Shown in pieces: positions 178 through 63,955 of a stretch of 64,000 nt of DNA. Below the pieces are notes generated by a model, which was not told where the DNA came from, did not search any database, and saw only the letters and a list, made by a program, of their open reading frames with translations. This stretch comes from Membranipora membranacea. Its lineage: Eukaryota > Bryozoa > Gymnolaemata > Cheilostomatida > Membraniporidae. Positions within the stretch are counted from its first letter, which is position 1; each line of letters opens with the position of its first letter. The DNA is taken from the NCBI GenBank assembly GCA_914767715.1, contig OU612067.1, forward strand, positions 12,095,001-12,159,000. Direction: 5' to 3'. Made by a program: the position numbers and the translations under genes.

Positions 178-2071
178 CCAATACTTGGTTGTGATAAGCC
201 AGAATGAAGCATCACATCGTATAAAGAAGAGAGCATTACCTGTTGAATGCAATGTTAATAAGCTTTATAACTCAACTTTGGCTTCTGCAACCAACCAGGC
301 ATGCTACATTACAGCCACATTCAAGGCAGAACAGATTACCATCCGCGGTCTGTTGCTTACAATTGGAAGTCAAGAACAAAACTTGGGCTACTACAACCAG
401 CTGCTACAGAAAAACCAATTCTATACTGTTCACATTGGATATCAAGGCACTATCGGGGTGAGTGAAATGTGGAATCCTTTAAAGCTACTCGCAAAATAAG
501 TTACATCTACGTTGAAAATCTGAATTTAATAGGTGCATAGAAGACATATATCACTTCTGTAATCAAAAAACATTGCTATATATTGATATAGAGAACGCTA
601 AATCCGTTTAATCATGCCTGCCCAGTTTACCATTGTCAAACCTATCTCTTCACCCAGAAGAGCGTTCTTTGATGACTCTCTTTTTCAGGGAGACAGAGAG
701 TTCATACAATTCACAGATTCAAAATCATTCCAACGTAAGTGATATGAGGTTACGGGACACTTTTTCTTCCACTGAGCAAAAAACGGCCAACAAATTTTTT
801 AAGACACAGTTCAGCTGAAAATAACCTTGAAGATTGATAGTTAGTACCTCTCTCATCTGGATTAAATGCAAGCCTATTGTACAGTGCATCAATGCAAATA
901 ACATTTAATAGTATAGTATACTCAATTATTATAAATGGTAGTCTATATTTTGAGATTGTACTTTAATTACATTACATATGATATTGAAGCTACATTTTTA
1001 GTACTTTATGTTATGCGGTGTCATATCACATCAAAAAAGATTGTATTATTTGATGGCTAATCATCTGAAAGTCTCAATATTTTTATGATATTCATCATTA
1101 TCATTACTTCTTCGCAGTGACTCTTCAGAGGTGTAGTCCACCACCTGAAATTAAAAACGCTCACCTTCTTGGCTCATCAGAAGACTACAAACTTGGTGCT
1201 CAGGCATTCTACCAATGTGATACCAATATTGTCTCGGGAGAAGGGGTATCTACCTGCAGTGAAACACCCTCAGGACTGATATGGTCTGAAAATACTCTTG
1301 TTTGCAAAGAGCAAAATTTGGGTATGTGTTTACTTCCTAGTTTGTTAATAGTTCAAATATGAAGACTTGATTGATTATGCAGGATGGACATGATACTAGG
1401 AGATTAGTATTTAAGCTGCTATCACATGTCATCATAACATCAAAATTGTGGATAACGATAATGAATTCGATTGAGATTCGGACAGTGATCATTGTTAAAT
1501 ATATTAATAATGAATATGGCACATGCATACCTTGTGGGTCAATATAATAGAAGTAGATTGGAAGATTGTATCTTTCCCACTGTTAACATAATTTCATCTT
1601 TCCTTTCCAAAACGTGTGCTCATTCACTTTTCAGCAAAATTACTTTCAATATTGATACATCTTGATGAATTATTTGTTGTTTGCTCCACAGTTCAAATCC
1701 TAGTTGGAGTGTTTGTCTCAGTATTGGTGATTGTTGGGATACTAGTGCTTGTAATCTACCTAAGAAAAAGGTCAGAATCTCCACAGACCACAGATGGGCA
1801 GGCATCCAGTGTACCAACAATGAGAGGTCCTGATGATAGATCTCCTCCTCCAACTTATGAGGATATAGAATTGAGATTCAGTGCTCTCTCCAACACAGAG
1901 TATGCTGAAGTTGCTGATACCAAAGGGGAACAAAGGGAAGACAAGATGTATGAAAACTTCAAACCAACCAGTCAAGAGAATCAGAATCAGTATGAGACGC
2001 TACAGCTTCCAGCCGGTCAAGATGCAACTGATGATGGTCATGTTTATGCAGAGGCCCCACCTAAATATTGA
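178..2071 (+). CDS. Gene A (3' end): RPTP-like ectodomain with CCP, TM and tyrosine-motif tail, no phosphatase
   Basis: Partial gene; its 5' exons lie before the window. Exons read from splice sites: 178-457 (enters in phase 2, leaves in phase 0), 689-734 (leaves in phase 1), 1118-1321 (phase 1 to 1) and 1692-2071 with the TGA at 2069-2071. The first two exons encode the membrane-proximal domain of receptor tyrosine phosphatases and align with exons 31-32 of gene B (same phases; shared NKLYNST/DKLYNST, CYITA and GYYNQ). The third encodes a sushi/CCP module. The fourth holds a hydrophobic helix (about 1692-1763), a basic stop-transfer YLRKR and a tail of about 100 residues. No PTP exon follows before gene B. 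The basic site RIKKR replaces the furin consensus RRKR of gene B. Gene B goes straight from exon 32 to its TM exon in phase 1, so the CCP exon is a symmetric 1-1 insertion. Role (inference): receptor signalling by tyrosine phosphorylation. Confidence 0.82.
1118..1321 (+). other. CCP/sushi exon of gene A
   Basis: A single symmetric phase 1-1 exon encoding about 68 residues with four cysteines in sushi spacing: C-SPPPEIKNAHLLG, FYQCD, STC, then W...LVC. A conserved tryptophan sits between the third and fourth cysteines (GLIWSEN). Sushi modules usually mediate protein binding in complement and adhesion receptors. The degraded copy in gene C (55826-56019) is nearly identical over its first half, so the two copies separated recently. 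Confidence 0.85.
1692..2071 (+). other. TM helix and signalling tail of gene A
   Basis: After the transmembrane segment the tail carries a PPxY motif (PPPTY, 1844-1858) that WW domains would bind. Several tyrosine motifs follow: YEDI, TEYAEV (1895-1912, an exact TxYxxV immunoreceptor switch-motif pattern), YENF (YxN, the Grb2-type SH2 motif), YETL (YxxL) and VYAEA. No enzyme domain is present. The motif matches are seen in the sequence. Binding to SH2 or WW partners is inferred from the consensus patterns only. Confidence 0.75.
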
Positions 2072-2510
2072 CCCACAACCTTAAATTTGGCTCATCTGCT
2101 TATACGAAAATCAATGGAAGGGGTTACTGTCTTATATTTATGTACAGGCTTTGATACAACTAGCCATCTACTAATAAATATCTCTACTGAAGTTTGTCTT
2201 ATCATTTAAAATATTAGTGCATCATTTGAGTTTGACATCATACAACTGACCAAAAAGGTTTTTCGATGTTGAAAATGCGTTTGATGAAGTAATATATTAC
2301 ACATTTATTATATATTGTTTTATTTTATTTTTATAATTACGTATAAATTAGATAACTTACCGCTTTTTGTAACAGGAATAACTGTTTGAAGCAATTGTTA
2401 CAAATAAAAATTTTATCCACCATACAACAATATTGTTAGCCAATATTTTCTTTTCACTGCCTTTCTTGTAAGAGAAAGTGGTGACAATACATCTGATTAC
2501 ATTCAATAAA
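2072..2510 (+). terminator. 3' UTR and candidate poly(A) signals of gene A
   Basis: AATAAA hexamers follow the stop codon at 2173-2178 and again near 2505-2510. Either could direct 3'-end formation. The region shows no further coding similarity to the receptor genes. Confidence 0.45.
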
Positions 2511-6345: not shown

Positions 6346-7066
6346 CAGTTCCGTGGTAAGGACCCAATACACAATTTATTGATAATTTGTAAGCTCCAAT
6401 ACCTATGCCCTATTTTCCCACCAGTGACCATTGGTATAGTATGAATAAGTCACTCATTACAATGAAGAAGGGTTTAGGTGCAAATTGAATTTGTGTCCCC
6501 CTGTCATGAGGTTGGACAACTTCAATAATAATGATCAATATTTTGAGGAGGCCAGGATTTTAACTGCGGAAATCACACAATAATGTTTTACATCAGACCA
6601 TATAATCATAAATTGAATGGTAGCTGCTAAACTAGGCTGTCTCGACATGCTTTGGCAATACAGGCTACTGTTATACATGAAATATATTAGAGCTTTGTAC
6701 AAATTAACACTCAAACTAACTCCAAGGTATGTGATAAACACTGTTGCAAACATTACATCATTACCATAAGACTACTGATTATTGGCACAGAACTTCCTTG
6801 TACACTTCAAAACTCTTCTCCCAACAGAGCGATCAAATCATCATCGCCTCAATAATAGCCACAAAGGGAAAGTCCCCAACATGACTGCACATTACATTAA
6901 TCAAATTCATAGGCCAAACCTTCATACGCTTGATTTAGACCACTTAATTCAGGCGGACTGTTATTAGCTCTCAATTCACACAACTACTAACTTCAAGGTT
7001 CAATAAGATTTCAATAGAAGGACAACAAAATGAGCAAAAGCAAACAATAGAATATAATATCTGCCT

Positions 7067-7182
7067 AAATCTAACCTCATGCGCTTACTTGCTATTAACA
7101 AGGAAGTTAGCTGAGAAATGTTGCGCACTGTTATCAGAAAACAACTGCATTTGGCTGCATGATTTCTTGGTGATAACATTGT
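7067..7182 (+). promoter_or_regulatory. Conserved upstream block of gene B (putative promoter/5' UTR)
   Basis: This stretch matches the segment at 57848-57972 upstream of gene D. Shared strings include AATCTAACCTCATG, GCTATTAAC, AGGAAGTT and GATTTCTTGGTGATA. The block begins about 219 bp before the gene B start codon and about 215 bp before that of gene D. AGGAAGT contains the GGAA core used by ETS-family factors. The similarity is seen directly; the promoter role is inferred from position and conservation. Confidence 0.6.
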
Positions 7183-7285
7183 TTGTAGCTGGGAACACAA
7201 GCACTGTCATGCTTTTATTCTGATAAGAGCATTCTCGCTGTCTAGTGCCAAGACTCTCAGGATATCAGCTACTGAGGGACTAACT

Positions 7286-7343
7286 ATGGATGACTACAAA
7301 TTTTGGATTCTCAGAGTATGTCTGCTCTCCCTTTTAATATCAG
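7286..7343 (+). other. Gene B exon 1: signal peptide
   Basis: Nineteen codons plus one base beginning at the ATG. A short charged start (MDDYKF) is followed by a hydrophobic run ILRVCLLSLLIS, then the donor gtatga in phase 1. The first exon of gene D has exactly the same length (58 nt), phase and pattern, which supports this start. Confidence 0.8.
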
Positions 7344-10300
7344 GTATGACAGTAATCATTTGATATTTGTGAACGGTTCACGAAGCTTGTAGATTTGTGA
7401 TGCGAAGTGAGACTTTTGTCAACTTGGGCGATACTATTATGGATATAAATTTGTTGCAACTTTGCCCCCAAAGCGACCCTCACTCTGTACAAGTTGCAAG
7501 GTGATACGGAGAAGTCCAAATATTTGAAATTGGGTGCCATGGCTGATCTATCAATTCTGATTTTTAGAAAAACCTTTTGAGAGCTTCTCTAAACCAGCAT
7601 GGGTAACATAACAAGGTGTGACGAGTATGCTAGCAGCTAGTCTAGTGGATAGCAAAGTGCCTGGAAATGTTTTATACCAATAACAAAATTACCAAGAGAT
7701 CTTGAACAGTTTTTTTGGGTGGTCGCAAGAAAACTTGATCGCAATCTTTTGAAATTGCCCCTCCCTTATAGTTCTTGCCTCTCTTCTAGTTGACAAGAGA
7801 ACCTTGACTATTCATAAGGGTTAAAAACTGTCTAAGCCTCTCTGAAAATTGCCACCAAGGCAAAGTCATGATTGATGTCAAACAGTTCGCCACAAACTAT
7901 AACTGATCTATTAAATGTTCCCCAATTTGACCCCTCCCCCCCCCCGCCCTCTCCCCACCACATTCGGATCAAGTTCATGCAGGCAAGTTACCATGACATC
8001 GGACATGACAAAATAATGTGATGTACTTTTGATGGATGTTATTCATAACCTTAGAACTATGTTGGGCAGAAGCTGCACGGCCATTATTATCTTATGGTAG
8101 TGAATGTCAATATTTGGTAATATGACAGGTTGATAAAAATAATCTTTCTCATCCTTAAGGTCAATAAAAAGGGAGTCGTGTTATTATGGGGTCTAAATCT
8201 TCATGAAACTAGTAGAATATTGATATAAGTGAGTATGTTCTGGTGGCCTGATATGGGTAAAAAATTGAGTTAAAAATTACAAGTTTGTCTCTGTCCGAGG
8301 ATTGAGAAATATCAGTGCCTTAAGTGCACGGCCGCAATATTCAGCACCAAGTTGCTCTCAGTTTTCAGGCAGGTCGGAGCACACCTGGGGCATCAATTGA
8401 GCCAAGTAGTCAGTAGACTACAGCAGGACTCGAACCCAAGACCTCCAACACTTTTGACGGCAGGCGCTCTAGCCAACTGAGATACCTCCTACTCCTGTGT
8501 ATGCAATTGATAACATTTCTTATATGCTTAGCAGAATGACTGCATGTACACGATCTAGTAAATATAGCTTCCAGCGGTAAAGTAGGCAAAGGCAAAGCGG
8601 TCTGATGGTGCTTAGTTCAAGGCTCTAAATATGCCGATTTTACATTGGTTTGGCTGTTGTTATTGGCCCTTTTCTACATGTCATCACATTCAGATGCCTG
8701 CCAAACTAAGTTAAGAACCTTGTTAAACGAGAACAAAGTCTGAAGGTGACATTAGAATATGGCTGAAAGGACTGGTTTTCCTTGCCTGAATTAACAGGAG
8801 TTCTGATGACCAGTATATTGTTTTGTGTTTATAGCAGAATGAAGCAATCCAACAGCTGAACATGAATGATTTCACTCTACCCATTGTTATTACAAGGGTG
8901 GTCCCTGTGGTCACTAGCCAAGTGCTTGTTAATTGTTTTCCGAAAACTGGCTGAAACACCTTATAACTGGCTCTGTTCTTGAGTTTCATTAAGTTGTGAA
9001 TTCCTGCATGCCTGCGTACTGGGTAGCTGGTTGTTACGTGATAATATGTCGGCTGCCTGATAATTCAAATGCAATGTAACATAATCATAAAAGGGAGGGT
9101 GAAAGGGAGAGGCTATCCAAATCCTCCCTGGTGATAATAATACCAGTATTGTCAAGTTCTATTAAATTTATGTACTGTCTACTCTTGTTATCTGCAAGGA
9201 CAACTCCTTGCAAGGACAACTCCTAGTATTTTATTTGCACATAACTAAACTTCTTGCTCTCATGCTAATAAGTTTACTGGTATATATGCCAACATACCTA
9301 TTTATGACCAAAGACTTGGGGAAAAGGATTTTGCATCAGATCAAAGTAGTATTGTGCATGCGTGCCTTGAACAAGCTTTGTCGTCTAATCATGTTCAAGA
9401 CAGGGTATGTGGACTGAAGAATAGTCATAAATGTGATGTCAATCACATCCTACAACAACTATTACACAATCCCCAAACTTAGATACCGTTTTAAAATTTT
9501 CTCCCTTGATTAAAAGCCAGGTGAATATTTCCGTGTTTTGCTATTTTATTATGTGCATCGTGAGGCAAAAATATTTTATAAGCGTTTATTACCAAATTAT
9601 ACTTGTGTAACATATCCTACTGCTTGTATGAGAGATTATTTCATCATTTGCGTTACTAATTTTTAAATTCAGGTTCATCACAAACAGTACCACAAAATGT
9701 GGCACAAGGTAAATCAACATCAAGATCACCTGAGACCTATTGGAAATGGGGAAACAAAGAGAACCTTGTGGATGGATCAGTTACAGCTTCATTGGTGTAT
9801 GGTGGGGGTATTATAACCGAGTGTAATGGGTGTTTTGCTAGCCAACCTGTAACTGGTTTCTGGCAGGTTGACCTCGGAGACAAATACTTTGTTCCCTATG
9901 TCAAGATAGTGAGAGTAACAGGTGAGATTAAGCTTTCTGTTGTTCCATCATCCTTTGATTCCGGATAGGAAATGATAATACAGTTTTTCAATAATAGTTA
10001 TATCATTTTGAGGGGGTTGGGCACATAATCTTGTTAGCATAATCTGTATCAGAATACCTGACATAGTTCTTAATACTAACAACCCTTCTTGATTCTTCAT
10101 TCCATCACTTCAGTACAATAAAAAGGTCATTCACATATTTTTGAAGTTTAAATGCCACAACAATCATGTAGCTTAGATCAAAAACATACAATGAAGAAGT
10201 TGTCCTCTTCTTTCACAGGTGAAGACAACTAAAATGTTTAAAAAAAAACATCTTCTGATTAGAACTCCCTACTAGGCAATTAATTGACTCAATGTTCAAA

Positions 10301-13300
10301 TTATCAAAATCCCTGTTCTAGTTTGCCAAAGGTTGTCTTGTGATTTGAGCTATCAAAAAATGTGAAACATCACTTTTGTGTTAGTTGAAGAAAATCAAGT
10401 TGCTTAGGTTACATTCCTTTCCATCATCATTGGCAGCAATGACCCTCTCATTTGAATTCATTTAACAAAGTGTGATGATTTAAGGAAAGTCAACATAAAG
10501 ATCCATAAACAGAGGTCTGTTTTTATTCATGCTGATAAAGAAAGTTAAAGACTACAGGAAGACAAAGGCAGTACAATACAGTACACAGGCGTCAATACCT
10601 ATGGATGAGCAAGGGTCAGATCTTTAACACTAAACATAATTTTCACCCGAATGTGCAAAGACCCGCCAAATTATTTCTCTTATGGCCTTTGAAATTTGTG
10701 TGATTTTACAGAACGAAACCGAGAGAAGATGCATTTTGAGAAACAAATACTGACTGGGGCTGTAGGCTAGGTTACCCACATTTAACAAATTAATACGTTG
10801 ATTTCAACCTCAGGTTTCACTAGTGATATAACTGGAGTGAGTATCGTCGTGTCTGAGAATGGTGAAGACGATGAGGAGATGCAGTACACAAGAGATCCAA
10901 ACAACCGCACCACACAGCATGACCTTCAGTACGTGAGATATGTACAATATGTGAGACTCAAGACCGACACTCCCACTGATGGAATGATCTTTGATGAGGT
11001 CGAAGTATATGCATTCAGTAAGTTCTATACATTAGGTTTCACAATGAGTTTCGTTCCTGTACCGCAAATCAATACTTGTCCAGTTCTGTCCATCCGAGAC
11101 TTCATTTCTTCTGACTTATAACTTTTGGTTTGGAGATCAAGTGCATACTGATCATGTGATATATATGATATATAATATAAAATGTGTGAATTCATATCTG
11201 CGTTCAATAGAGCTTAAATAAATTCAGGCAGCCTGAGTTACAATTAAGTGGGTGTGAAAACCTTTCGTTAGTTTCTAGAATAAGTTAAGGGCAAACATGA
11301 TGTACTGGTACTCAGACTAAATTGATTGACTGGCAGCCAGAAATACACATCATATCTTTCAGATACCGAACTGTTTATCCCAACTCTAGTAACCGCAAAT
11401 GGCCCAAACGCAAATTCTTTGAGAATAATCTGGCAGCCACCACCGTCAGCGTCAGGATATACAATTAAATACCAGGTGAGTAAGACCTGATTGTATTGGT
11501 TGAATAGTGTACGTAACTAAAATCAATATAAATGAATTGAAACTTCTTAATTGTTCTTTTGAAATATTGAGTGATAGAAAATGGGATGATACACAACATA
11601 TAGCCTCTCATTATTGTGGTCACGATTATCATGATAGTTTGAGTCGGGAGCATATTATAGTCAGGAAAAGTTGTGCAAGATTTAGGCAGCTCCAATTCGA
11701 TGCTCTGTCCCTACTATGTTGCTGTCCTGTGCAAGGCCTGGTACCAGTATTTAATAAAATACACTTTGAATGTTGATTTCTCTACAAATACATTTACATT
11801 TAACAACTAGCTATTAAATACAGATCTCCTGGAAATTAAAATATTGTAGCGAATGCAGTTATTTTCAAATCATATTTGAGTGTAGAGGATATTTCATCAT
11901 CATAAAAAATATTGCATAACCTAATATGTTTTACCTGATTTTGTGATGCCTTATTGTCATGTTTCACGTTTGGTAATGATTCTATTCATCTATTTAAAGC
12001 TATAGTTGCGCCTCCTCACTTTTGGCATGATTTTGAAGGTCTCAGTCTCATTAAGAGCATCATGGCAACCTTTTAAATAGCCTATGGAAACAGCTGAAAC
12101 CATTCCCTTTACTAAAACGAAAATTGTTCTCAGTTTTTCTCTACCACTAAGGTTGTCTCCCCTTTATATATCTATAACATATAGATATGTATGAAACTGC
12201 CCTTAAGTTGGATAAATCTTTGAAAGATATGATAGTGAGCAAGTGATTGGCAATGCTTTTTTACTTACTACTATAGCTTATAGGGCACGAAGAAAATGAA
12301 TTGCAGTCCTGATACAATTGTCATGACAAGTCAATGCTAGCTATTATGACACGTTAAGCTGTGACTTGTACTGTATACATTAGTATGTTTCTCTGATTTC
12401 TAACAGTACCGGTGTGGTGATGGAAGCTGGAGTAATAAGCAGAGTTCAGACCCCCAAGTATCAGCAACAGTGACTGGTTTGACCGGTAGCAGTATCTATA
12501 CCTGTTCTGTGAGAGTAGAAAAGTCACCAGAGAACCCTAACACAGCTGAAGGATTGACTTGGTGTGCAGGTACATATTATTTTACTTGCTTAGCAAGTGA
12601 GGATGTAACAATAAAACATATTGCACCAAAAAAATGATGATGAGAATCTATGATCCCTGCACATTATTGTACTGCTGCAGAAAGCTTAAAACAAATTTAA
12701 CAATTCGTCATTAATTTCACTTCCATGTTTTGAAAAGAATTTCACTAAATAGACAAACAAATTTAACTTTGACTTGAGCAAGTTTCCTTTTGGATGTTCA
12801 AGGAAATGTCCGCCCAACACCAGTATCACTATCAGCTGGGAATCCAACTCAAGTTAATAATGATGGGAGAGAAAGATGGAGATATGACATCACATGGAGT
12901 GTAGGTATCAATTTATTATTTCATTATTATTTTTAATTCTATTGGTACTCCAACCTGTCATTGCCTGCCCGTGAATACCTTCGATAATATATTTTCGATA
13001 ATATATGTAGCTGGTACCTTAATTGCCAAAGATATAGTGCTTAGTTTTAGGAAAAACAACATTTTAAGTTGATGTGCTTGTAGAAACTTGAACGAGTAAA
13101 AATAATGTTTGTTTACTGTCTCGGTGCTGAAAATTCCTTTCATTTACATCCATAAATGTATCAGACTTTACCTTTTATGTTTTAAAACCATTTGATCATG
13201 ATGTATGCGCTGTGTAATTCTCAATTATTTTTATTTACATACTACTCCATAGATGCCATCATACTACAGACTGAGTTGCTTGACAGATGTCAATGGCAAG

Positions 13301-16300
13301 TACAAAGTTGAAGTGGATGGAACTATCCGAACTTCAGGTCAACCAGGAACAAGTTATGTTTATCATACTGATGGGAATGTGAACCTAGCAATCAAAGTAT
13401 GGTCCCGCAACAGGGAAAATAATCTATCCTCAGCTGCTACTGTATCTTTGACAACACCAACTGGATTACGTGAGCACCATTTAACGAATCCATAGTTAAA
13501 TTAATTAGATTATACATTTATCATTTATTGCATGTATAACATAACAATTGTTCCAATTCATATGTATATAGCGGGGTGCAATCAGAAAATACCATATAAC
13601 CAAACAAACCCGAGTAGCTCAATAGACTGTAGCGGTTTCGAACCTAGGAACTTTCAACACTCGCACGCTGAAGAGTTAGTACTCTAATAAACTGAGCCAC
13701 CTCTTAAACCTACAGATTTCTTTGGAAATCAAATTTGGGTTGTTCAGAAAACCCAAAAAATGAACTCGCTGAAGAACTCAGAAACTTAGAAAAAATTTAT
13801 TTTATTTTAAGTTCAGCCTCATAAACACAAGGTAGTATCAGCAACTTGGTCAACTTTATTCAACTCAAATTGTGCGCAGTAATTGTCTGCAGTAATTGTT
13901 TGCAGTAATTGTTTGCAGTAATTTTTTGCAGTAACTTTTTGCAGCAATTTACTCAAGTAAATTTAAATTTTGTTTCATTTCATTTTATTTTATTTTATTT
14001 ATTTATTTTTTTTTATTTTATTTTGCTTTATTTTTTTTCATTTATTTTTTAAATATATCAATATTATTAATTTTGTTAAATTTACTTATTTAAAGGGCAA
14101 CCAAGGTTTCGCAGCAATGCGTTAATGGGTAGGAAATAATGTGGTGGGCAGCATCAGATTTGTGCATTATGCGATGCAAAACTCAAAGTAGTTGCTGACT
14201 CTAAGCTGGGAAACACTTCTGTTTAGGAGAGGTTCCAAGACTTTGCTGTAATAATTATAGAGCACAGGCTAAATAATAACAGGAACAGGAAACTGCTATG
14301 TGGTATTCTCTTTTAGCTGAGTTTGAGTGCCTGATGGAAGAAATGTTTCACAAGAATTCTGGCTGAATAATCATCCGAATTATATTTTGACTTTTTCCCC
14401 ATGCAGAAGGTGCAATCTGCTATTAATCGATGGCCATCAATGAGAAGTTGTTTGAAACCTTGGTTGCCCTTTAATAGAGTAAAAACTCAAGTAAATTGAG
14501 TAATTTACTCAAGTAAATTAACTTAATTTATTAATGTTAATGTTTGCAAAAGATTTACTTGTTTGCAGAAGATTACCCGCCTGGATAACAGTTATAAAAA
14601 CCAAATCATTTCGGTCAACACTTCTATTTTAAGTTCAGCCTCATAAACACAAGGTAGTATCAGCAACTTGATCAAATTTATTCAACTCAAATTGTTTGCA
14701 GTAATTGTCTGCAGTAATTGTTTGCAGTAATTGTTTGCAGTAATTGTTTGCAGTAATTTTTTGCAGTAATTTACTCAAGTAAATTTAAATCTTATTTCAT
14801 TTTATTTCATTTTATTTTTATTTTATTTTACTTTATTTTATTTTATTTTGTTTTGTTTTGTTTTGTTTTATTTTATTTTATTTTATTTTATGTATTTTAT
14901 TGTATTTTATTTTATTCTATTTTATTTTATTTAACTTTGCTTTATTATTTTTTATCATTTGTTTTTTTTCAATATATCAATATTATTAATTTTGTTAAGT
15001 ATATTTATTTAATAGAGTAAAAACTCAAGTAAATTGAGTAATTTACTCACTAAATTAACTTAATTTATTAATGTTAATGTTTGCAAAAGATTTACTTGTT
15101 TGCAGAAGATTACCCACCTGGATAACAGTTATAGAAACCAACCCATTTCGGTCAACACTTCTGTTTTAAGTTCAGCCTCATAAACACAAGGTAGCATCAG
15201 CAACTTGGTCAAATTTATTCAACTCAGATTGCCATACTTGGAGAAGAGATGACAAACATTAGAATCTTGCTACATTTGAATACCAGACTTCATGATTTCA
15301 CATGATGGCATGATTGTTACTTGTTACTAATGGTTTGATATCTCAATGGCCTGGCGATCACACATTCTGATTATTTCCAGCTCCACAAGTAAGACCGAGG
15401 AATGTTGGTCTTACAGCTCCAGTAGACAAATGTGTTCAGATATCACACACAGGGGTTGAGTACCCGAATGCACCTAACTCACAGATTATCTACCAGGTAC
15501 TCTATCAATTTCTTTAATAGCAAGTTAGGTACAGTAAATGTATTAAAGATGAGACACAAAAGATTCAGAATTGTTTAGAAATTACATTACAGCAAAAGTC
15601 CATATCTTTATGGGCAGTAGCCAGTTGCGTGAAACAATCATGGCTGAGGTTTGTTGGTGCAGCCTATGTTGCATGCTAAGACATATTTAAGATACTTAGT
15701 CCAATCCCACACTAGACACGACAAACTGTCTTGCCATCGATACTGATCTGATCATTGTAAACCAACAACGCTTTGCTTGTGAATATACTGTGAATATGTT
15801 GTGAATATGTTGTGAATACCTTGTGAATATATGGTGAATACCTTGTGAACATCTTGTGAACATCTTGTGAATATCTTGTGAATATCTTGTGAATATCTTG
15901 TGAATATCTTGTGAATATATCTTTTGTTTAGTACATGTGTACCAGTATGACAAATTGGCTGACCATCCCCTCTAACAACAGACGTTGTAGTTACTCAGCT
16001 TATCAGATGGTTTCATGTCAAATCAGAGCTCATAACACCAACAACAATAAGAACAGTGAGACTGCTACAACTGCTTCCATCTACACAAAATGTGAAAGTA
16101 AGAATTTAAATGTTGAATTACCAAAATACAGTGCTATGTTTGGGGAAAGATGTCCTGCATACATTTCCAGTCTGCATGTGTCCAAAAAATTAGGCTTCGG
16201 TGAAAAGAAAAGTATCAATGGGTGTGGTACTCTTAATCAAGTAAACTCTTTTAGCACATTTATTGACGTCAACTCACATCTCAATGATATTCCCCAATTA

Positions 16301-45197: not shown

Positions 45198-45252
45198 TGA
45201 TCTTGATATCTCCACATCATAACATCAGGTTAACAGAAGGACATTTGTTACT

Positions 45253-45606
45253 ATAAAGCTGCGTCTGCGCAGTCTTTAACCCCAAGTCTGAGCCAGAGTC
45301 TGAGACATGCATGTGTTTACATAGCACCGGTTAGCCAATGTCAGAGAAATTAAATGTGAGTGATAGAACAAAGGGCAGTATTGTGATTGCTAAATTAGGA
45401 ATTTGTGTTAAGTCTTGAGTCTTGAGTCTTGAGACTGCAAAACGAGCACTGCTCGAATTGCCAGACATCGTCTTAAAAGCCGGTCAGACAAGGTCAGTCA
45501 ACCGTTTTTGTTATTCACACTACACAGTTTCAGCCTCCGTGTTAGTAATTTGTCGATCAGACTCAAGGCTGGGCCAAAAGACAGCCTAATGTAAACGCAG
45601 CTTTAT
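45253..45606 (+). mobile_element. Second MITE family, copy 2, in the gene B 3' UTR
   Basis: The homologue of 26402-26790, starting TAAAGCTGCGT and ending with the complete right terminus GCCTAATGTAAACGCAGCTTTA. It lies about 55 bp after the gene B stop codon, so a transcript ending at 45.9 kb would carry it. The left terminus has lost the inner bases that copy 1 keeps. Confidence 0.83.
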
Positions 45607-45875
45607 GTATTCCCTGATTGTCTAAGTTTAATCTTCTAGTTTTGAAATCTCGATCTTCTGATTCAATCAACTTTAATTTGTTACTGTGGTAATGACTTCA
45701 CAGCTTTATCTGTTTCATCGTAGCCTAAGAAAATAATTGCCCTGTGCAAAGATTTTTGTGCCATAATGCTCATATATATATTTTTTTTTAATTTTTATGC
45801 ACACCTTTTTTGTTATTTGTAACAGACAAAACTAAGCATAACAAATATAAACGATATGTTTTCATAAATCATCAT

Positions 45876-45881
45876 AATAAA
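45876..45881 (+). terminator. Candidate poly(A) signal of gene B
   Basis: An AATAAA hexamer about 680 bp after the stop codon, beyond the MITE. Other A-rich hexamers occur nearby, so the true 3' end is uncertain. Confidence 0.4.
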
Positions 45882-47854: not shown

Positions 47855-48654
47855 TATGACTGCGGATACTTTGATGAAGACTTGAACTTGAATCGCACTG
47901 TGAATGCTTCGGTTCTCAATGATCTCAGCAACAAGATAGAAGTCTGTGGTTTTCACTCAGAGTCCCACATTAAATGTATGGCGGAAGCTGTCAATAGCAT
48001 AGGATCAAGCCCATCAGCTACAGGGGAAGGATATACAATTATTGAAGGTAATGTTGAATGGAATCAGTCAAATTTTCGGATCTGTTAAACAGATATCAGT
48101 ACAAAAAGCCCCAATATATCGTTTGCACCTTGGAACACAGCTCAGCATCAAAGGATTTCACCAATGTTCTGGTTATTAGAGGCAGCTGACTGCCACATAA
48201 CACCTGGTTCTCAAAACTATTTCAATCAATGATAAGGCAGCATTAACAATTTTAATCTGTCTTGATATGGGCAAAGCACCCTGGCAGATCACCAGCATCA
48301 CGCTTTTCTGCTACAATATTGGTTTATTTTGTGTGCCTGCCCTAGATCAAGAATGATCCATTTTTCCCACATTGGAATTGCCCCCCCTCTACTGACACGC
48401 CGAAGGAAAAATAGATCAAGAAAATTCATGCTATTCGTTGTAATTATCTCCCATGCCCATGGCTGAAAACCAGTAAGAGAACACAAGTTTGATTGTAAAA
48501 GTCTCCCACAATGCATTTGCTTTGGTTAACACCTTCACATGACTAGAGAGCTTCAGTACAATTATTGTTCACTCTCTCAGATCAAGAAGTAACTCATTGC
48601 TCAGTGTCTGTTTTAAGTTAGTGCATACTAGTGCTTTACTGTTCTCTACCTACT

Positions 48655-55825: not shown

Positions 55826-56712
55826 TGTGTAAACCGCCACCAGAAATAAAAAACGCTCACCTTCTTGGCTCATCAGAAGACTATAATCTTGGTGCTCAGG
55901 TATTCTACCAATGTGATACTGATAATATTGCCCTGGAAATTGGGTATCTATCTGTATTGAAACACCCTCAGGACTGGACTGGTCGGAAAATACTCTTGTT
56001 TGCCAAGAGTGAAATCTAGGTTAGTCTTAACAAAGCAGTTCATTATGTAACATTTTCTCAATAAACTGGGTGCATATACATTTTGTGAGCTAATATTACC
56101 AGTAGTTGGGTTGGAAGAAAGTCTTGTTATATCTCACCTACCTAAAATTAAGTGAAAATAATTCAGGTACTGCATCAAACACATTGAGCTATTATTAAAA
56201 TCATTCATGAAAGACTATGAAATATGAATTGGGTTCCTTACTTTCTCTATGATTACTATTGATTCAGGGAAACTTTTTTACAATTTTGTTGCATCTGATT
56301 GGTTGATGTTTTTTTTGGCAGTTCCAATCCTAGTTGGAGTATTTGTCCCAGTATTGGTGATTGTTGAGATACTAGCGACCATGATATATCTAAGGAAAAG
56401 ATCAATACCCTCGCAGTCTATCCCTGAAACCACCAATAGGAATGAGTCCAACGTTACGGCCGCGAGTGGTCAGGATGGTAGATCCTTTCCGCCAGCTTAT
56501 GAGGATGTAGAATTGAGATTCAGCACTGTCTCAAACTCAGAGTATGCTGAAGTTGCAGATTTCAAAGGCGACCAAAGAAGCCTGAACAGAATTCGTATGG
56601 AAACTTCGATCTAACTGGACAAGAGAAACAGAATCAGTATGAATCACTCCAAATCCAAATCGGTCCAGATACAACTGATGATGATCATCTTTATGCAGAG
56701 GCCCAACCCTAA
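55826..56712 (+). pseudogene. CCP and TM/tail remnants of pseudogene C
   Basis: The CCP remnant begins CKPPPEIKNAHLLGSSEDY, almost identical to gene A, and breaks after about 35 residues. The TM exon keeps VPILVGVFVPVLVIV and IYLRKR. It also keeps a PPAY motif and SEYAEV, where the TxYxxV threonine of gene A is serine. The later YxxL and YAEA motifs survive only out of frame. If the exon were still transcribed, the in-frame product would end at 56614 with a tail of about 70 residues. Confidence 0.8.
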
Positions 56713-57346
56713 TACTAATGAAGATCCTTAAAGTCAGACGGCTCAACTGATTGATATGAAACAAATTAAGGTTATTGTTTGAAGCATATCATGCGATTTA
56801 GATATTGTATAAGCCTGTCCTGATATGAAAACGTGAAACTGTTATCTTTTCCTTATCAGATTTTTAGTGGGTAAATATGAATTAAACATCTACATGGCAC
56901 TTTAAGTTTCATAACATTTTTTTAACAATTCCTTAGTTTTAGTAAGTATCAAATTTTACTAAAACCTTTCTTGCAACATCAACATTATTTTAAGCATATT
57001 TTAGTTTATACACTATTCACCATAAAACCATGATATTTTCACCAAGCTGCTTCTGTTTTTTTGTAGTTCTGAGGCTACCATATAACTGTATTACAAAATC
57101 AACGGAAATAAAGTCAGTAACATGACATTATCAAATTTTTGTGAAAATCTCTACTGAAACTGATGGAATGTTGACTTAATGCAGTTATGCAAGACAGCTG
57201 ACAACTTATGTGTTGCTCATAGTTCAAATCCAGACCTTCCTTCTCTAAGTGATCAAAAATCCAAGGTCTATATAGTAACACTAGAACGGCGAAGTTCCCA
57301 AACTTTTCATCCGTAATATTGACAATCTTCGAATTCTAGAGGAAGG

Positions 57347-57685: not shown

Positions 57686-57847
57686 AACACCCCCCTTAAT
57701 ACGCCTACATCATATTCACTATTTGTTTGGATGCTTTTGATTAACTACTAAACACAAGGTTAAATAAGCTATGAATAGAAATTATATCAAATGAACAATG
57801 ACCAATAATGAAGATGTAGAATTTTTGCCTTTATGAATGCGTGCTAT

Positions 57848-57972
57848 AAATCTAACCTCATGTGCTTATTCGCTATTAACCAGGAAGTTTGCGGAGTGAT
57901 GTTTGTACTAGTATAAGAAAATCACGGCATTCACCTGCTTGATTTCTTGGTGATAGCATTGTTATTGAACAT
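57848..57972 (+). promoter_or_regulatory. Conserved upstream block of gene D
   Basis: The counterpart of 7067-7182, with AATCTAACCTCATG, GCTATTAAC, CAGGAAGTT and GATTTCTTGGTGATA in the same order and about the same distance from the start codon. The sequence around it is not obviously conserved, so the block may be under selection or simply young. The GGAA core could bind an ETS factor. Confidence 0.6.
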
Positions 57973-58062
57973 CAAGCAAACTTTTTAAAGTTGTGCCTTC
58001 TGTGATATGGATAATATCTGTCTTGTGCAAGCACCGACAACTGTATAACATCCACTGAAAAG

Positions 58063-60195
58063 ATGGGTGACCTTACAAGATTCTTGACCATCCAGATTTT
58101 CTTTCTCTCACTGCTAATAGGTAATTAAACACTGTTCTATGGCTTTGAGGCGCGACTTTATCACATTCAGTTGTTTCTACCCACAATTTATTATTTGTTG
58201 TGGTATAATCAATTCATCAGTGTCGTGTCTGATCTTGTAGTGTCCTAAGTTGGGGAGGGTAGTAGTATTAGACCAAATAATATTGGGCACAAAATCCCCT
58301 GGACAATTTATTGGGGATCACAGACAGAATACATATTTGCTGTAAGATGAGTGTTTTCCTAACAGTATAGAGGTTTTGCAGTCGGGATTATGGGAGATGT
58401 CTGAGTTTGAGATGTGTATGATTTGTTTAAGTCTTGTAAATTGGTGTACTTGAACTCGACGTGGGTAGAGAGGAGCCTGTTGGAATGCTGCAAGAGGTCA
58501 GCGGGAACAAAACCTTGGACCTCACAATAGCTAGCCTCCATATTGTCATATATCTGAAACATTGCAAACATAAACGATCTAAGTGTGTTCTTTTGAAGAT
58601 TGCAGCTCCCACTGGGATTCAGTTTAGGGAGGTAAAAGAATGGTATTGTTCGTACAGTGGTTTCCCTCTCATTATTAGTGATCCTTGGTTAATTTCTAAT
58701 CTTTGGGTTCTTAGATGTTCAGACAGACTTCATAGACTGATGTTTAATCATACATTTAGGCAACCTAAACTTAGTTGTAAATTAGTAGTTTTTTTTCTTA
58801 ACATGTAAAGACCAATTTTATTTGGTTGTATTCTTTCCGTTGCCATCCTGCATTATGTCACTTCTTATTACTTCTGATGTTTTTACTTCATTGTTTTGCC
58901 TGGTGCAGGACACCAATCTGAAGGAAACCATTCATAATTTCAGGATATGTGAAGAATTTTAACTCGTTCAATTAGCGACCACATGAATTTTGATTACAGC
59001 AAAGAACATCATTTGAATTGAAAACTAATATTTAATACCATAATATACCATGTTATATTCAAAGGCAAATTACAATCACTATATTGCCGTATATCGATTT
59101 GACATCAGTATTAAGCTTGATCGATACATGGGATTAGCATTTAAGTCAGCTTGGAGTCAGGAGTGATCTGATGGTTAAGGGTGCGGACTTGTGATCTGTG
59201 AGGTCCATGTTTAATTCCCGACACCGGCAGTCATTTTTGATTTGGTACTGGCGCGCCATTCATCCTAGCCAGGTCCTTGCGGAACGGGACTAAAAATACC
59301 AGAGGTCCACTGTGTGTTTTCACACTCCACATGCAGTAAAAAGATCCCCATCTGCCACTTTGATATAAAATAGTTGCCGGAATTCCGAATGAAATTTCTT
59401 GACACGAGTACATACCTTTCTGAACCGAAGTTTTTTTCCATCATGGAAACCGTTAGCATTCATCATTCGAAATTAGAGCGGACCACTCATTTGAGGCATG
59501 TAACCATAGTGAATTACGCTCTCCCATGCTTTCATATATTGTTTCACTTTCAAGTTGAATTTCCCATTGTTTGTGAATTTATTAAAATTTTTCTCACAGT
59601 TCCAGGTTTGTCACAAAACGTACCACAAAATGTGGCACTCTATAAATCAACAACACTTCAGAAGGCCTCATCAGCACCAGCAGCTGCAAACTTTTGGAAA
59701 TTTGGAGACAAAAACAACCTTGTTGATGGATCCCATTCAGCTACACTAAATAGCGCTCTCACTGACTGCTCCGGTTGTTTTGCTAGCTTAGCTATTGAGG
59801 GTTATTGGCAGGTCAACCTTGGAGACAAATACTTTGTACCTTATATTAAGATTGTAGGAGTAGAAGGTGAGATGATTTATTTCACTTGCCCAGAATTGCC
59901 TTGGCTGCTTAAGAATGGCAACAACCAAAAACCTTTTTTTATACCAACCATAAAATCAGGTGAGCCTAGTGGTTAGCGAGTTGGATCATCGATCTGACGA
60001 CCGCGTCTGATTCCCGTGCATGTCCCCTGGTGTTACCTGAGAAGCCGAGTTCGGTAGGGTGTTCCAATGAGTACCAGCTCTTCAATAGTCAGGGTTGGCT
60101 ATGGAGTGCTTGGACCCAGTGACCAGGCGGTAATGATGTAGTGTTCACCGCTTAGAAGTACCCATTGTGGCTTACATTAAGCGGTATATTAAAAA

Positions 60196-60227
<32 letters not shown>

Positions 60228-63200
60228 AATTTCGGTACAATAAACCATTAATATTCTATCCGCTGCAGCCTCCTGTGTTAAGCATTGCACTAGGGGCATT
60301 GGGTTGGTTTTAAAATAAATGAATACACCGCTCTGTTTCAGGGTCACCATGCAGTGTTCACCAGAATTGAAAATAATTAGCAATGTGTCTCATGGTGAAG
60401 AGCCATTACATACTTTCGAATATCTTCATTGAATATGGACAAAAAAGGCCCTTTGGTAACTTCCCAAGTACACTAATGTCTGGCTGCAACCTCTAAAACA
60501 TGACCTAGTTGATGAAGGGTAACCATGATGCACCCATTTTCCTGATTCATGATCGTACAATGTATAGCGTGTACTGAGTCCCTTTTTGCAAACAACTGAG
60601 CAAAAGTTGTGTGACCTTTTGGCTATAATGACTTGTTAAAATCAGTTCAAAGATAGTTTAATTTGTTATCCAGAATTTGTCGGTGAATTTGAGGTGAGAA
60701 TTCAAACATATATGATGATTATAGGATTAAGAGGATTATATATTCAAGTATTTAAATTACCGTGGTTTAGTAAACAGTTTTGGATACTTGTAAATAACCA
60801 GTAATTTGGTAAGACCAGCTTGTTAGCCAATACATACTTGGTATAAATGGTACATATTAGCATGAGGTGAATAGGTGCATAATCAGTAGCTTTTGTTAAC
60901 TAAGGCATGCTTGCGAGACTGCAGCTAGATATGGGTGTATTTGAGATGCCAAGGGACCCCTATTAGTTCAAATGCAGTGAAATTTTTTGTAGGTATGTAA
61001 AATTACTGTTCCGCATGATATGGTTAATGATTTGTCTTCTTTGAGGAACTTTCAGTGTGTTGGCCAAAATTGGCTCGAGCCAATTAATGGTCAAACAGCC
61101 ATACAAAAATCTGTCCACCAAAAGTACCAGGAATTGAACTTTTTAAATGATTTACCTTGAATCGCACAAATTCAATTATTGTGAATTAAATCATTTATGG
61201 CTTACATGTGTGAAGCTGATCCTCTTCCATGTTCAATTTTCCTTTAATCATCAACATCGGTATTCATCAACTTTTTTTAGGATGACACAATTGAATGATG
61301 ACAAGTTCATTAAGTGTATTATGCTGACATATCAAGAAATTTGAAATAGTATTCTGCTCTGTATTATCAGGTTTCCCTCATGATCTTCCCGGAGTTAGTA
61401 TAATAGTATCGGAGAATAGTGGAGCTAGTGATGAGGAGATACAGTACACAAGAGATCCAAACAACCGCATCACACGTCATGATCTCCAATATGTGAGATA
61501 TTTAAAATATGTGAGACTCAAAACAACCCTGCCAACGGACGGAATAATATTTGATGAGGTGGAGGTGTATGCTTTCAGTAAGTCAGTTGGGCCCTTCTCA
61601 TTTGTTCTTATAGTAATTGTCTGAATTGATTCCAAGTATTGTGATTACTATTGTTCACAAGCAGCACAGTGAACTCAGAGTCATCGTATTTCAATTCAGC
61701 CCGCTTGATGTATAATGTGATATATATATAGCAATAACTCATGTAACTCAGTGATCTCAAAGTGTTAATCACTTTGTTTGCAGTTTTTTTTCTCTCAGTG
61801 CACCTTGCTACAGTTACAGGTGCTTGATTGACGTTTACCATTGGACCATTTTAGACACCCAGCAGTTTATTCCTCGGCAGGTTTCAGCCACTGGTATTAG
61901 CACTAGTGAGGTGAGGTTAAACTGGATTCGCCCTGTGTCGGCCAATGGTTATTCTATGAAATACCAGGTGAGCTCATTGCTTGCTATGATCATCTTGTTG
62001 TCGTTTTAATTTTCTCCTAAAGTATATGAAGACAAGGAACATTTGGTTTTTTCTTCTTGTCCTGTGCGAATCAAGTATGTTACCAACAAGTGCAGTGTCA
62101 CTTTTTTCATTTGTTGACTAAATCTTTCATCACTGTAGGATGCAAATTTGTTTTACCAAACACCATAATTAAATGACTTCGGAAGTCAATTAATACCTAA
62201 TCGGTGTGATAGTGAAACTGACTTACTTCCTCAAGGGCAGATTGAAGATAACTATATCCTGTTTAAAAGGAAACTTTTCACTGATTTTTGATAGTACAAA
62301 TGTGGTGATAAAGACTGGAGTACCACGCTGAAGAGTACAAACCTACAACACTCAGCTACAGTAAGCGGTTTGAATGGCAGCTGGCGTCACACTTGTTCTG
62401 TAAGAGTGCTCAAATCACCAGGGAATCCGATTACAGATGTTGGAAATACTTGGTGTGCAGGTACAATTGAACAATCCTCAGTGATGTGGCCGCTAGATAA
62501 ATCAAAACATGCATCGAACCACAATGGAAACAGCTCATGACAATGATCTCCTTTGCCATATTTCTCCTAGATTTTCAGAGTAAAAAATTCAGAATAACTT
62601 CAAACGAATTAGCATGCCACGCCTTCGGTACCAATTATGGAAGAGAATAATAATCAATAATCACAGACTAATGTTGCAGCAGTATAATAAATTTACCTAC
62701 AAACTAGGAGCAATTTGGCGCAGACAATGAAGTTTTGCCCTTAACACACGCACTATTTTGCGGTCCATTCTTGGAATGTGTTGAGTGACTGAATCCATTT
62801 CAACGTACTTTTTGTTTAACCTACATCAATTTTCCTATTTCAATTCCAAGGAAATGTCCGCCCACAACCAATAACGCTATCAGCTGGGATTCCGACACAG
62901 ACTACTAATGCTGGGAGAGAAAGATGGAGATATGTCATCACCTGGAGTGTAAGAATTTATGAGCTATCTTCTCTGTACAAAATCTCAAATAAACAACAAC
63001 AACTTGAACAATAACTTTGAGCTGTGTAGCAACTTTATTTAACATGCTTCCCAACCATGCAAGGTAAGGAGAATTTCCTACTGTCTGTCATGTATTTATG
63101 AGGTCATACAAACCTCTTTAGATAAGATTTATCATTTCATGCTTTCAGTCGAGAGACTCATAAAAAGAGTAAATCATTTCTATCGAGCTGGTATTATATT

Positions 63201-63955
63201 CAAATTTGCTCACCTAATATTTTCTTTATGCAGCGCTTCTGGGGCTGGTACTACATGCCAAGTGTGGTGCAGAGCTCATTGATTGATACATCATCGCACT
63301 GTTTTCTTTTGATCTTTTAGATGCCATCTGATTATATACTTGATTGTTTGACCATTATAAATGGAAAATATCAGGTCGAAGTGGACGGTGTAGTTCAAGC
63401 TAATCAACCATTGACAAGCTACACATATTACACTGATGGGAACGTAAACCTGAACATAACAATAAGGTCACGCAACAGAGATGATGGTCTCTCCTCACCA
63501 GCTGAAAGTTCCTTTACGACACCAACAGGGTTACGTGAGTTCTACGCATCATCCCATTTGACAATTTAATTGGATTATGAGAATAATGATAAATAACTAT
63601 TCGTCATCTATGACCAAATAAGTTCATTTTTTTAAAGAAGGTGCTTTCAAGGTGTGATTTTAGCCTAGGGAAGACTAATTTCTTATCTTTCATTTGTATC
63701 AATTTCCAATTGAACACAATTAAAAGTCTAAGACAACGATAATGTTATACATATATATATATAAATTTATGTGTTTTCAAATTGTTGCTGGCAGTTTGGT
63801 TGTTACTTTTCTTGACAGAGGTCACAAATTGTTTTTCAGCACCACACGGTAAACCACTCAGTGTCTCTCTTACTGGTCCCACTACAAGCTGTATTAAAAT
63901 ATGGTACACAGGAGTAGAATACCCAAATGCACCTACCACACAGATCACCTACCAG
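58063..63955 (+). CDS. Gene D (5' end): receptor paralogue of gene B, cut by the window edge
   Basis: Exons: 58063-58120 (signal peptide MGDLTRF..IFFLSLLI), 59600-59866 and 61371-61577 (lectin-like domain with NVALYKSTT, NLVDG, CSGC, YWQVNLGDKY and FDEVEVYAF), 61855-61967 with 62295-62460 (FN3 1, alpha type), 62851-62948 with 63321-63534 (FN3 2, beta type), 63840-63955 (first half of FN3 3, with EYPNAP and ITYQ). All phases equal those of the matching gene B exons and several lengths are identical. No frame break is seen. Whether the missing 3' part encodes phosphatase domains (B type) or a tyrosine-motif tail (A type) cannot be told from this window. Confidence 0.85.
59156..59400 (+). repeat. 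tRNA-derived SINE in gene D intron 1
   Basis: A plus-strand head with an A-box-like GATCTGATGGTTAAGGGTG and a B-box-like TGTTTAATTCCC, about 33 bp apart, followed by a body of about 150 bp. The B box departs from consensus (TTTAATTCC for TTCGATTCC), so the copy is old. The 3' boundary is uncertain. Confidence 0.6.
59957..60237 (+). repeat. tRNA-derived SINE with (ATT)n tail in gene D intron 2
   Basis: A nearly complete SINE of about 280 bp. The A-box-like TGAGCCTAGTGGTTAGCGA (59961-59979) and B-box-like GCGTCTGATTCCCG (60003-60016) are followed by an unrelated body and a terminal (ATT)n run of ten or more units. The order of head, body and simple-repeat tail is typical of tRNA SINEs mobilised by a LINE. 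Confidence 0.75.

Follow-up and report, generated by a model that had tools for sequence, protein, structure and literature searches.

Gene organization in the window

The locus considered here lies on chromosome 3 (C3) of the colonial bryozoan Membranipora membranacea, and the question it raises is why, in a row of related genes, one type of ectodomain should lead in one gene to a receptor tyrosine phosphatase and in its neighbours to an enzyme-free tail with tyrosine motifs. Four units, A to D, lie in the window (the whole 64,000-nt stretch of DNA that was analysed, to which coordinates without a C3 prefix refer). Their best explanation, which taken as a whole and with a model of opposed outputs included we consider probable, if only just, is that they belong to a family of cell-surface receptors, expanded in this lineage, with one ectodomain format and two exchangeable effector ends. 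The predicted format comprises a lectin-like domain, an array of FN3 domains and a membrane-proximal (MP) domain of the phosphatase type, and the predicted end is either a receptor tyrosine phosphatase with an active-looking D1 and a degenerate D2 (B type), or a CCP domain, a transmembrane segment (TM) and a tail in which five tyrosine motifs are conserved (A type).

The phosphatase receptor, gene B, was read as follows:

6982..7189, + strand: conserved 5' flank, common to the A- and B-type genes compared (from sequence comparison)
7286..7343, + strand: signal-peptide exon, 58 nt, ending in phase 1
9673..9921, + strand: lectin-like (F5/8C or F-type) exon 1
10814..11017, + strand: lectin-like exon 2
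11363..31571, + strand: FN3 array, about 12-13 domains, mostly of two exons each (phase 1-0-1), some edges unsure
31860..31965, + strand: X exon, first half of the MP domain
32494..32779, + strand: MP exon with furin-type site RRKR
32890..32935, + strand: small exon, homologous to 689-734 of gene A
33190..33307, + strand: TM exon, the first B-specific exon
34359..37681, + strand: PTP D1 exons, with WPD at 37012-37160 and the P-loop at 37546-37681
35804..47215, + strand: 11.4-kb block that matches the PTP end of another B gene (C3:12040209-12051504) at 94-96% identity, in introns as well as exons
39014..44992, + strand: PTP D2 exons with a degenerate P-loop (CIVS..DGGMKCG), the last and some others not delimited

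That gene B ends in PTP D1-D2, as the initial annotation had it, was upheld: behind the TM there follow a D1 with a WPD loop (WPDHDVP) and an HC(X5)R P-loop (VHC/SAGVGRTG), as in receptor-type PTPs, and then the degenerate D2. Gene B matches Pfam Y_phosphatase at 325.5 bits, and the best PDB match of D1 is PTPRS. The FN3 ectodomain and the furin-type site in the membrane-proximal domain are likewise features of receptor-type PTPs (RPTPs). At the other end of the gene, the lectin-like domain matches F5_F8_type_C_2 at 25.5 bits, below the cut-off of 27.8, and the F-type lectin Sm-hPAF at E 6e-4. Gene B is also a mosaic, its front being alignable with gene A, intron stretches included, and its 3' block being 94-96% like that of another B gene.

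Gene A starts at C3:12073214 and has its ectodomain to the left of the window, where one FN3 exon farther upstream is degenerate; the 5,000 bases immediately left of the window are N, so that neither its last FN3 exon nor its X exon could be read. Its 3' end is within the window:

178..457, + strand: MP exon, which contains the basic site RIKKR and codes for the second half of an RPTP-type FN3 (start predicted from B, whose exon has 286 nt)
689..734, + strand: small exon (GDREFIQFTDSKSFQ), the last exon common to both types, homologous to 32890-32935 of gene B
1118..1321, + strand: CCP (sushi-like) exon
1692..2071, + strand: TM, tyrosine-motif tail and stop (start predicted from paralogues)

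The order is thus MP domain, small exon, CCP, TM and tail, the last with the motifs PPxY, TEYAEV, YENF, YETL and YAEA. The CCP of an A-type paralogue, G5, scored 16.8 bits as Sushi, under the cut-off of 20.7. At the other edge of the window, gene D begins:

57765..58062, + strand: conserved 5' flank (from sequence comparison)
58063..58120, + strand: signal-peptide exon, 58 nt
59606..59866, + strand: lectin-like exon 1
61371..61577, + strand: lectin-like exon 2
61855..63955, + strand: first FN3 exons, the gene continuing to C3:12172193 and ending CCP-TM-tail

The MP domain, CCP and tail of gene D lie beyond the window (C3:12170081-12172193), and it is an A-type gene. The models of D and G5 are complete from start to tail and stop, and no PTP catalytic domain was present in either as read over that length; a Pfam scan of G5 also gave no match to an Ig or MAM family.

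A decayed remnant and the question of alternative ends

Between B and D lies what is left of C:

47849..48049, + strand: last-FN3 exon
55828..56009, + strand: CCP, frameshifted
56327..56715, + strand: TM and tail, frameshifted

The initial annotation had taken A to D as four paralogues in a row with the same phases, and A and C as both ending in CCP, TM and an enzyme-free motif tail. The first statement stands for A, B and D, which are paralogues on the + strand with identical exon phases, and the second for the exon order of A; C drops out of both. Between its FN3 remnant and its CCP region no match to the X and MP exons remains, and two transposon-like ORFs (weak Pfam matches) are found there. 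The frameshifts in CCP and tail, along with the missing X and MP exons, rule out C as a live short receptor. C is thus a decayed remnant, as are all six A-type ends found downstream of B genes (at six of the seven B genes): every one of them is interrupted by stops or frameshifts, and in some no match to certain exons was found.

Such ends behind 6/7 B genes, in matching exon phases, are what might be expected if the A-type exons were alternative 3' ends of phosphatase genes, i.e., one gene with two spliced products, an arrangement that had been named in advance as fatal to the pairing of A with B. We regard it as very improbable, and for the genes of the window it was rejected on genomic evidence: the six ends are all broken, A, B, D and the neighbours G1 and G5 each have their own signal exon, and neither D nor G5, both complete A-type genes, has a PTP.

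One family in one cluster

The core observation was extended by a genome-wide count, which gave 14 A-type genes (lectin exon plus open tyrosine tail) and 7 B-type genes (lectin exon plus phosphatase), each assigned by its position in a single cluster. All matches of the lectin-like exon (24 copies genome-wide) and of the tyrosine tail (26 copies) fall inside the same 1.35 Mb, and the seven family P-loop exons of the cluster are each at a B gene. The D1 catalytic motifs are intact in 7/7 B genes.

Paralogy goes beyond chance, because the modelled genes are open frames chained across 25-48 exons, ectodomain identity is 55-75% between pairs of the four genes compared, and Pfam recognizes Y_phosphatase in B and Fn3_PTPRU in the MP domain of B (38 bits) and of G5, the one A-type gene scanned (34.5 bits), both above the cut-off of 24.7. 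Over the whole length of the ectodomain, A and B are 71.7% identical. The modelled A- and B-type genes have 5' flank, signal, lectin and FN3 exons in common and diverge after one phase-1 intron. A strict RX[KR]R site occurs in the MP domain of 7/7 B genes versus 6/15 A-type MPs, and is absent from A and D.

Probable exchange between ectodomain and effector

On a tree of the lectin exons (14 A and 7 B rows, with P7 and P9 unlabelled and the broken copy C3:11647751 omitted from alignment and tree), the effector label needs 6 changes, the shuffled mean being 6.1; at least 3 changes are forced by starred branches (4/20 inner branches are starred), and a single effector origin appeared in 0% of 200 bootstrap trees. 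Since the label is as scattered as when shuffled, while the seven D1 are 95-100% identical to that of the window gene in their exons, ectodomains and effectors seem to have recombined during evolution. Cross-type twins with lectin exons of 95-96% identity, i.e., the near-identical ectodomains in one cluster that characterize paired receptors, were found for window B and 12459 (A type), gene A and 12640 (B type), and 12292 (B type) and 11788 (A type), and the 5' flank is common to all five genes compared (2 B, 3 A). At the MP domain the exchange seems incomplete, because on the MP tree (three broken MPs unlabelled, three minus-strand A-type genes without an MP match excluded) the label needs 3 changes against 6.2 shuffled, less scattered than chance. 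For lectin exon 1, dN/dS is 0.25 (210 of 253 pairs counted), and none of the 210 pairs, from one haplotype, was above 1 as diversifying change between paralogues would have it.

That one ectodomain type is found with two alternative effectors in neighbouring genes, the core of the original proposal, was seen repeatedly: an A-type tail is the immediate 5' neighbour of every one of the 7 B genes, although in one case (12631865) the end of the tail is altered and no lectin match belongs to it. Under random order this adjacency has p 0.02-0.06, which is marginal, and it is due in part to block duplication. The pattern could also be that of an ordinary tandem family, whose ends were shuffled by unequal exchange or gene conversion and whose A and B members act in different cells or on different ligands. 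The near-identity of PTP exons and block among B genes is consistent with this, as are the modest p value, the partial tracking of effector type by the MP tree, and the recurring succession of an A-type tail, a B gene and then a broken A-type end, which accounts for the adjacency. On the lectin tree, nevertheless, the A and B labels are completely intermingled, so that either end occurs with the same types of ectodomain, and the compared A and B genes have a common 5' flank, both of which argue against it; we consider it plausible, but short of probable.

The A-type tail

An ITSM is defined as TxYxx[VI] and an ITIM as [SIVL]xYxx[VIL]. ITSM-like motifs are present in 18/21 tails and the ITIM pattern in two more, the tail of 11590 having neither; YE[AT]L occurs in all 21, and PPxY and YEN in 17 each. 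A regular ITAM pattern is confined to 2/21, ruling out an ITAM-type activating tail as the general rule, and 18 of the 20 fully read A-type helices have no acidic or basic residue, the exceptions being D and 11590. The A type therefore has the cytoplasmic tyrosine motif of ITSM/ITIM receptors and lacks what marks the activating member of a pair (a charged TM with a short tail, or an ITAM). With ITSM-like motifs so common and ITAMs so rare, the activating/inhibitory label first given to the pair is not supported.

Constraint on the tails is concentrated in the motifs, with dN/dS of 0.07 in motif codons versus 0.27 in linkers, values that are rough because mean dS is ~1.2 and is lower in motif codons (0.86) than in linkers (1.41). 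They come from 19 tails, including two (11849, 12329) from copies with a stop in the CCP and omitting 12630 (altered end), 11590 (divergent) and five broken tails; 146-159 of 171 pairs, with dS >0.05 and unsaturated, were counted. These values bear on the suggestion that the tail serves mainly in trafficking (PPxY for Nedd4-type ligases, YxxL for endocytosis), with A-type proteins as decoys or adhesion receptors competing with the phosphatase receptors. The frequency of PPxY and YE[AT]L fits such a role, but TxYxx[VI] and YEN exceed the needs of trafficking alone, as does the slower change of motif codons relative to linkers, and we think it unlikely.

The reading we favour, by which A and B types would have opposed outputs on a shared class of ligand, may be pictured as follows. 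The A tail would be phosphorylated by a Src-type kinase and SH2 proteins would dock on it (at the ITSM-like TEYAEV and the Grb2-like YENF); a B receptor meeting the same ligand class would bring its D1 to the A tails and reset them; and the balance of A to B would set the response.

Relation to known systems

Gene B resembles the R2-type RPTPs (LAR/PTPRS, PTPRU/K/M) in its FN3 array, furin-type site in the membrane-proximal FN3, TM, active-looking D1 and degenerate D2. The family differs from them in its lectin-like N-terminus, with no Ig or MAM match in G5, and in having sister genes in which a CCP-TM-tyrosine tail replaces the enzyme. Two RPTPs of Watersipora subatra (NCBI P0001, P0002) were the best two among the listed matches, drawn and scored from the 7,978 candidates sharing most words, covering 97-99% of the queried part of B at 38% identity and with the same MP domain, D1 and degenerate D2. 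On visual inspection the P0002 model seems unrelated over its first ~100 residues. No A-type partner was seen in Watersipora in searches whose reach for that end was small. Relatives of the CCP-tail end outside this genome were sought among candidates with shared 5-residue words and similar length, and none was found at E 1e-3 among 2,560 or at E 1 among 300; the reach was small, because the larger search did not pick up the Watersipora proteins with the MP domain either.

Vertebrate paired receptors (SIRP, PIR, KIR) are clustered genes with near-identical ectodomains and differing signalling ends, the inhibitory end acting through recruitment of a separate SHP phosphatase, the activating end through a charged TM and an adaptor. 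Here, by contrast, one member carries its own phosphatase, and 18 of the 20 fully read A-type TMs are uncharged. Going by the portions of the literature available, fester and the fester co-receptors of Botryllus (fuhc locus) form a large cluster of sushi-containing TM receptors in a colonial animal, with tyrosine-motif tails and with partner genes alongside; they and Alr-type receptors have Ig-type ectodomains, of which the G5 scan gave no sign. In the available part of one account, the fester family has Ig and sushi domains with ITIM or hemITAM, no phosphatase-ended member is described, and CD45-like receptor phosphatases are expressed in reacting tissue (PMC12065747). The accessible part of the Bugula genome paper expects recognition sequences and gives weak similarities to Alr1 (PMC7576161).

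No pairing of phosphatase- and tail-ended receptors was found among the matches listed or in the titles and abstract openings of the open-licence literature. That literature described no gene by which bryozoan colonies recognize each other, and yielded no paper on Membranipora colony fusion or on lineage-specific expansion of RPTPs; its papers on bryozoan gene family expansion included none on such receptors, and those on bryozoan tyrosine phosphatases were, among the matches listed, on natural products or drugs.

Implications

Going one step further, the family may have a role in self/non-self or microbe recognition. That the 1.35-Mb cluster is the bryozoan self/non-self locus, in which reshuffled, matched ectodomains are joined to a kinase-substrate tail or to a signal-erasing built-in phosphatase, so that recombination swaps both specificity and sign of response between genes, is a long shot. 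If true, allorecognition in colonial animals would have evolved here independently, in addition to the systems of Hydractinia and Botryllus, and the enzyme that opposes the signal would be part of the receptor itself. The cluster is in any case a concrete, bounded candidate for bryozoan colony recognition, and the family, in which the kind of output (a predicted phosphatase or phosphotyrosine docking tail) does not track the recognition domain, is a direct case for the study of how paired receptors arise.

Organisation of the receptor cluster

Membranipora membranacea is a colonial cheilostome bryozoan, and in its 339 Mb source genome the window corresponds to C3:12095001-12159000 (C3, chromosome 3). 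The gene cluster sampled by the window is real, well bounded and unusual, and its architecture is well shown at the level of sequence. The lectin-like exon had 25 genome-wide matches, representing 24 copies, all within C3:11.34-12.64 Mb, and the tyrosine-motif tail had 30, representing 26 copies, all within C3:11.32-12.63 Mb. The exon of the membrane-proximal FN3 domain (MP) was matched 38 times: 25 times in the cluster, once at C3:33.5 Mb, and 12 times, more weakly, on C6, in exons similar to the MP domain. All genome-wide counts for the lectin, MP and P-loop searches are lower bounds at E 1e-3.

Combining matches by position gave 14 A-type genes with a lectin exon and an open tail (11 on the + strand, 3 on the - strand) and seven B genes, in which a like ectodomain is joined to phosphatase domains D1-D2, all on the + strand. 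The three minus-strand genes had no MP match in the E 1e-3 search. Immediately 5' of every B gene there is an A-type tail, with 7-13 kb separating the end of the tail from the B lectin exon; one of these seven tails, at C3:12631865, is without a lectin match of its own. With 13-17 A units, such an arrangement would arise by chance with a probability of 0.02-0.06. Behind six of the seven B genes lies a lectin-less A-type 3' end, and each of these six ends is broken.

A-type 3' ends with defects or alterations (named by C3 position in kb, except C, the decayed remnant in the window)
11849, behind a B gene: stop in CCP
12329, behind a B gene: stop in CCP; exons not found
12061, behind a B gene: stops in all three exons
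C, behind a B gene: frameshifts; exons not found
12442, behind a B gene: frameshifts; exons not found
12536, behind a B gene: frameshifts; exons not found
11898, other A-type end: broken
12630, other A-type end: altered end
11761, other A-type end: no CCP seen
11775, other A-type end: one CCP cysteine lost
12253, other A-type end: stop close to the MP exon start

The lectin exon at C3:11930399-11930626 shares 94% identity with the one in gene B, and between it and the lectin exon at 11976616 there was no MP, tail or P-loop match.

Gene models

Models were obtained by splice-aware exon chaining backed by paralogy. Gene B has 47-48 exons and about 2,200-2,400 residues, varying with the chaining settings, and in the chain model it begins with:

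Window 7286, + strand: signal exon, 58 nt
Window 9673, + strand: lectin-like exon
Window 10814, + strand: lectin-like exon

An array of about 12-13 FN3 domains, mostly phase 1-0-1 exon pairs, is followed by the two exons of the membrane-proximal domain (X, then MP) and, in order, by a small exon, the TM exon, D1 and D2. The model is provisional at some exon boundaries, in some of the D2 exons and at the last exon. The chain models of gene D (about 1,690 residues) and its A-type paralogue G5 (about 1,450 residues, C3:12224360-12243385) start at a signal exon and finish in CCP, TM and tail without any PTP between, and the CCP exon of gene D is open by direct comparison, though the model truncated it. 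Gene A spans C3:12073214 to window 2071, with one degenerate FN3 exon and an internal run of 5,000 N (C3:12090001-12095000), which abuts the window's left edge and conceals part of the gene.

One ectodomain, two effector ends

Homology between A and B extends through the MP exon and on to the end of the small exon behind it, which reads GDREFIQFTDSKSFQ in A and NEKSFTQITDSTSFQ in B. The phase-1 intron that comes next leads to the TM exon of B or the A-type CCP exon. Among 15 A-type 3' ends, the small exon was identified in 12 and an open CCP in 14. The MP domains of both B (38.0 bits) and G5 (34.5 bits) exceeded the Pfam Fn3_PTPRU cut-off (24.7); thus the enzyme-free type retains a receptor-phosphatase membrane-proximal domain. 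Among 25 MP exons examined, a strict RX[KR]R site occurred in 7/7 B genes and 6/15 A types, and KKR was retained in six of the nine A types without it.

D1 of gene B matches Y_phosphatase, its closest PDB entry being PTPRS. All seven B genes have open WPD and P-loop exons that keep their motifs and are 96-100% identical to those of window B; the two further D1 exons compared are 95-100% identical where covered, some copies being cut or lying outside the stretch compared. D2 is without the nucleophile region (CIVS..DGGMKCG). The best outside relatives among the matches listed were two Watersipora subatra proteins with a similarly degenerate D2 (VADKLGTTRCG), which suggests that the inactive D2 is probably older than the Membranipora/Watersipora split. 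The P-loop had at least 53 matches genome-wide (E 1e-3), seven in the cluster and 46 elsewhere, the best beyond the seven being 59% identical; judged from these 46, the RPTPs of this genome are greatly expanded outside the cluster as well. They lie on C1, C3:33.06-34.0 Mb, C6 (2.9, 8.1-8.4, 11.6-12.1, 15.2-16.1 and 23.8 Mb), C8:5.45-5.80 Mb, C10 and C11:6.83-7.01 Mb; many are clustered and one has a stop.

Over the compared part, 21 of the 26 tail copies are open and five have stops or frame breaks. The open tails carry YE[AT]L (21/21), H[LVI]YAxA (19/21), TxYxx[VI] (18/21), YEN (17/21), PPxY (17/21) and a regular ITAM (2/21). Across 19 tails the NG86 dN/dS ratio of means was 0.07 for motif codons, 0.27 for linker codons and 0.13 for the TM, and, because tail dS is high, the motif/linker contrast is trustworthy and the absolute values are not. 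Limited-reach searches (shared 5-residue words, similar length) of a 5.8-billion-protein set returned no relative of the A-type CCP-tail end. The TM of gene D (C3:12171805-12172193), unlike nearly all other A-type members, has an arginine (MAILRLVNH), which could reflect adaptor pairing or decay.

Mosaic structure and a proposed history

The lectin tree comprised 23 rows (14 A, 7 B, 2 unlabelled), on which the effector label, A or B end, required six changes against a shuffled mean of 6.1; a single origin appeared in 0/200 bootstrap trees, and the nearest labelled neighbour was an A row for five of seven B. The domain is short and most inner branches are weak (4/20 starred), so the safe number is the forced minimum of three changes. 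On the MP tree the label required three changes versus 6.2 when shuffled, and by this measure MP is tied more tightly to the effector than the lectin exon is.

In pieces of at least 200 bases, B aligned with A over window 6720-30396 at 69-93%, including introns in many stretches. Against G1, another B gene, only the 5' flank and some exons aligned up to 35330 (pieces of at least 200 bases, 71-79%), together with one dispersed repeat (86%), whereas window 35804-47215 was 94-96% identical across exons and introns. By these alignments B is a mosaic, its front being A-like and its PTP block recently shared; a wrecked A-type end lies behind it. The simplest history would be that a PTP end became placed ahead of A-type ends and that the latter decayed afterwards.

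The C remnant has two transposon-like ORFs (window 48722-49279 and 51166-51723), with matches below cut-off to DUF4371 (weak, E 0.017) and an integrase core (E 1.9e-5). Gene B introns hold a mobile-element-like inverted repeat (window 14090-14474/17878-18262; 385 nt arms, 96% complementary), and a dispersed repeat occurs at window 26454-26784 and 45265-45582 (pieces 93-96% identical), with an extra copy at C3:12049550. Window 40001-44000, within gene B, is strongly asymmetric between strands and pyrimidine-rich on the + strand (GC skew -0.21, AT skew -0.19), and three ORFs scanned there had no Pfam family at E 0.1.

Comparison with known systems and proposed function

The best analogue we have seen in print is the Botryllus fester/FcoR system, in which clustered sushi-bearing receptors of a colonial animal have ITIM or hemITAM tails, and CD45-like phosphatases are expressed in the same tissue (PMC12065747). 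The Membranipora ectodomain differs in being lectin-like plus FN3, with no Ig match in G5, and the phosphatase is built into one member of the family. The Membranipora receptors are placed outside the fester/FcoR family, and also outside the classic paired receptors, whose charged-TM/ITAM feature is not the rule here. The main text of the Flustra genome paper, searched by word, mentions none of phosphatase, immune, lectin or allorecognition.

The initial annotation had proposed activating/inhibitory paired receptors; with a regular ITAM in 2/21 tails and an ITSM-like motif in 18/21, the label gives way to "opposed effectors", of either sign. All five genes compared (2 B, 3 A) have a common 5' flank of about 200 bases, which makes related expression of A and B genes plausible. 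RPTPs and ITSM receptors have established roles, and by these and the motifs, the A-type tail would be a kinase substrate and SH2 dock that D1 would oppose. The functional pairing of A and B is plausible, and the family may work in the manner of fester/FcoR or the classic paired receptors.
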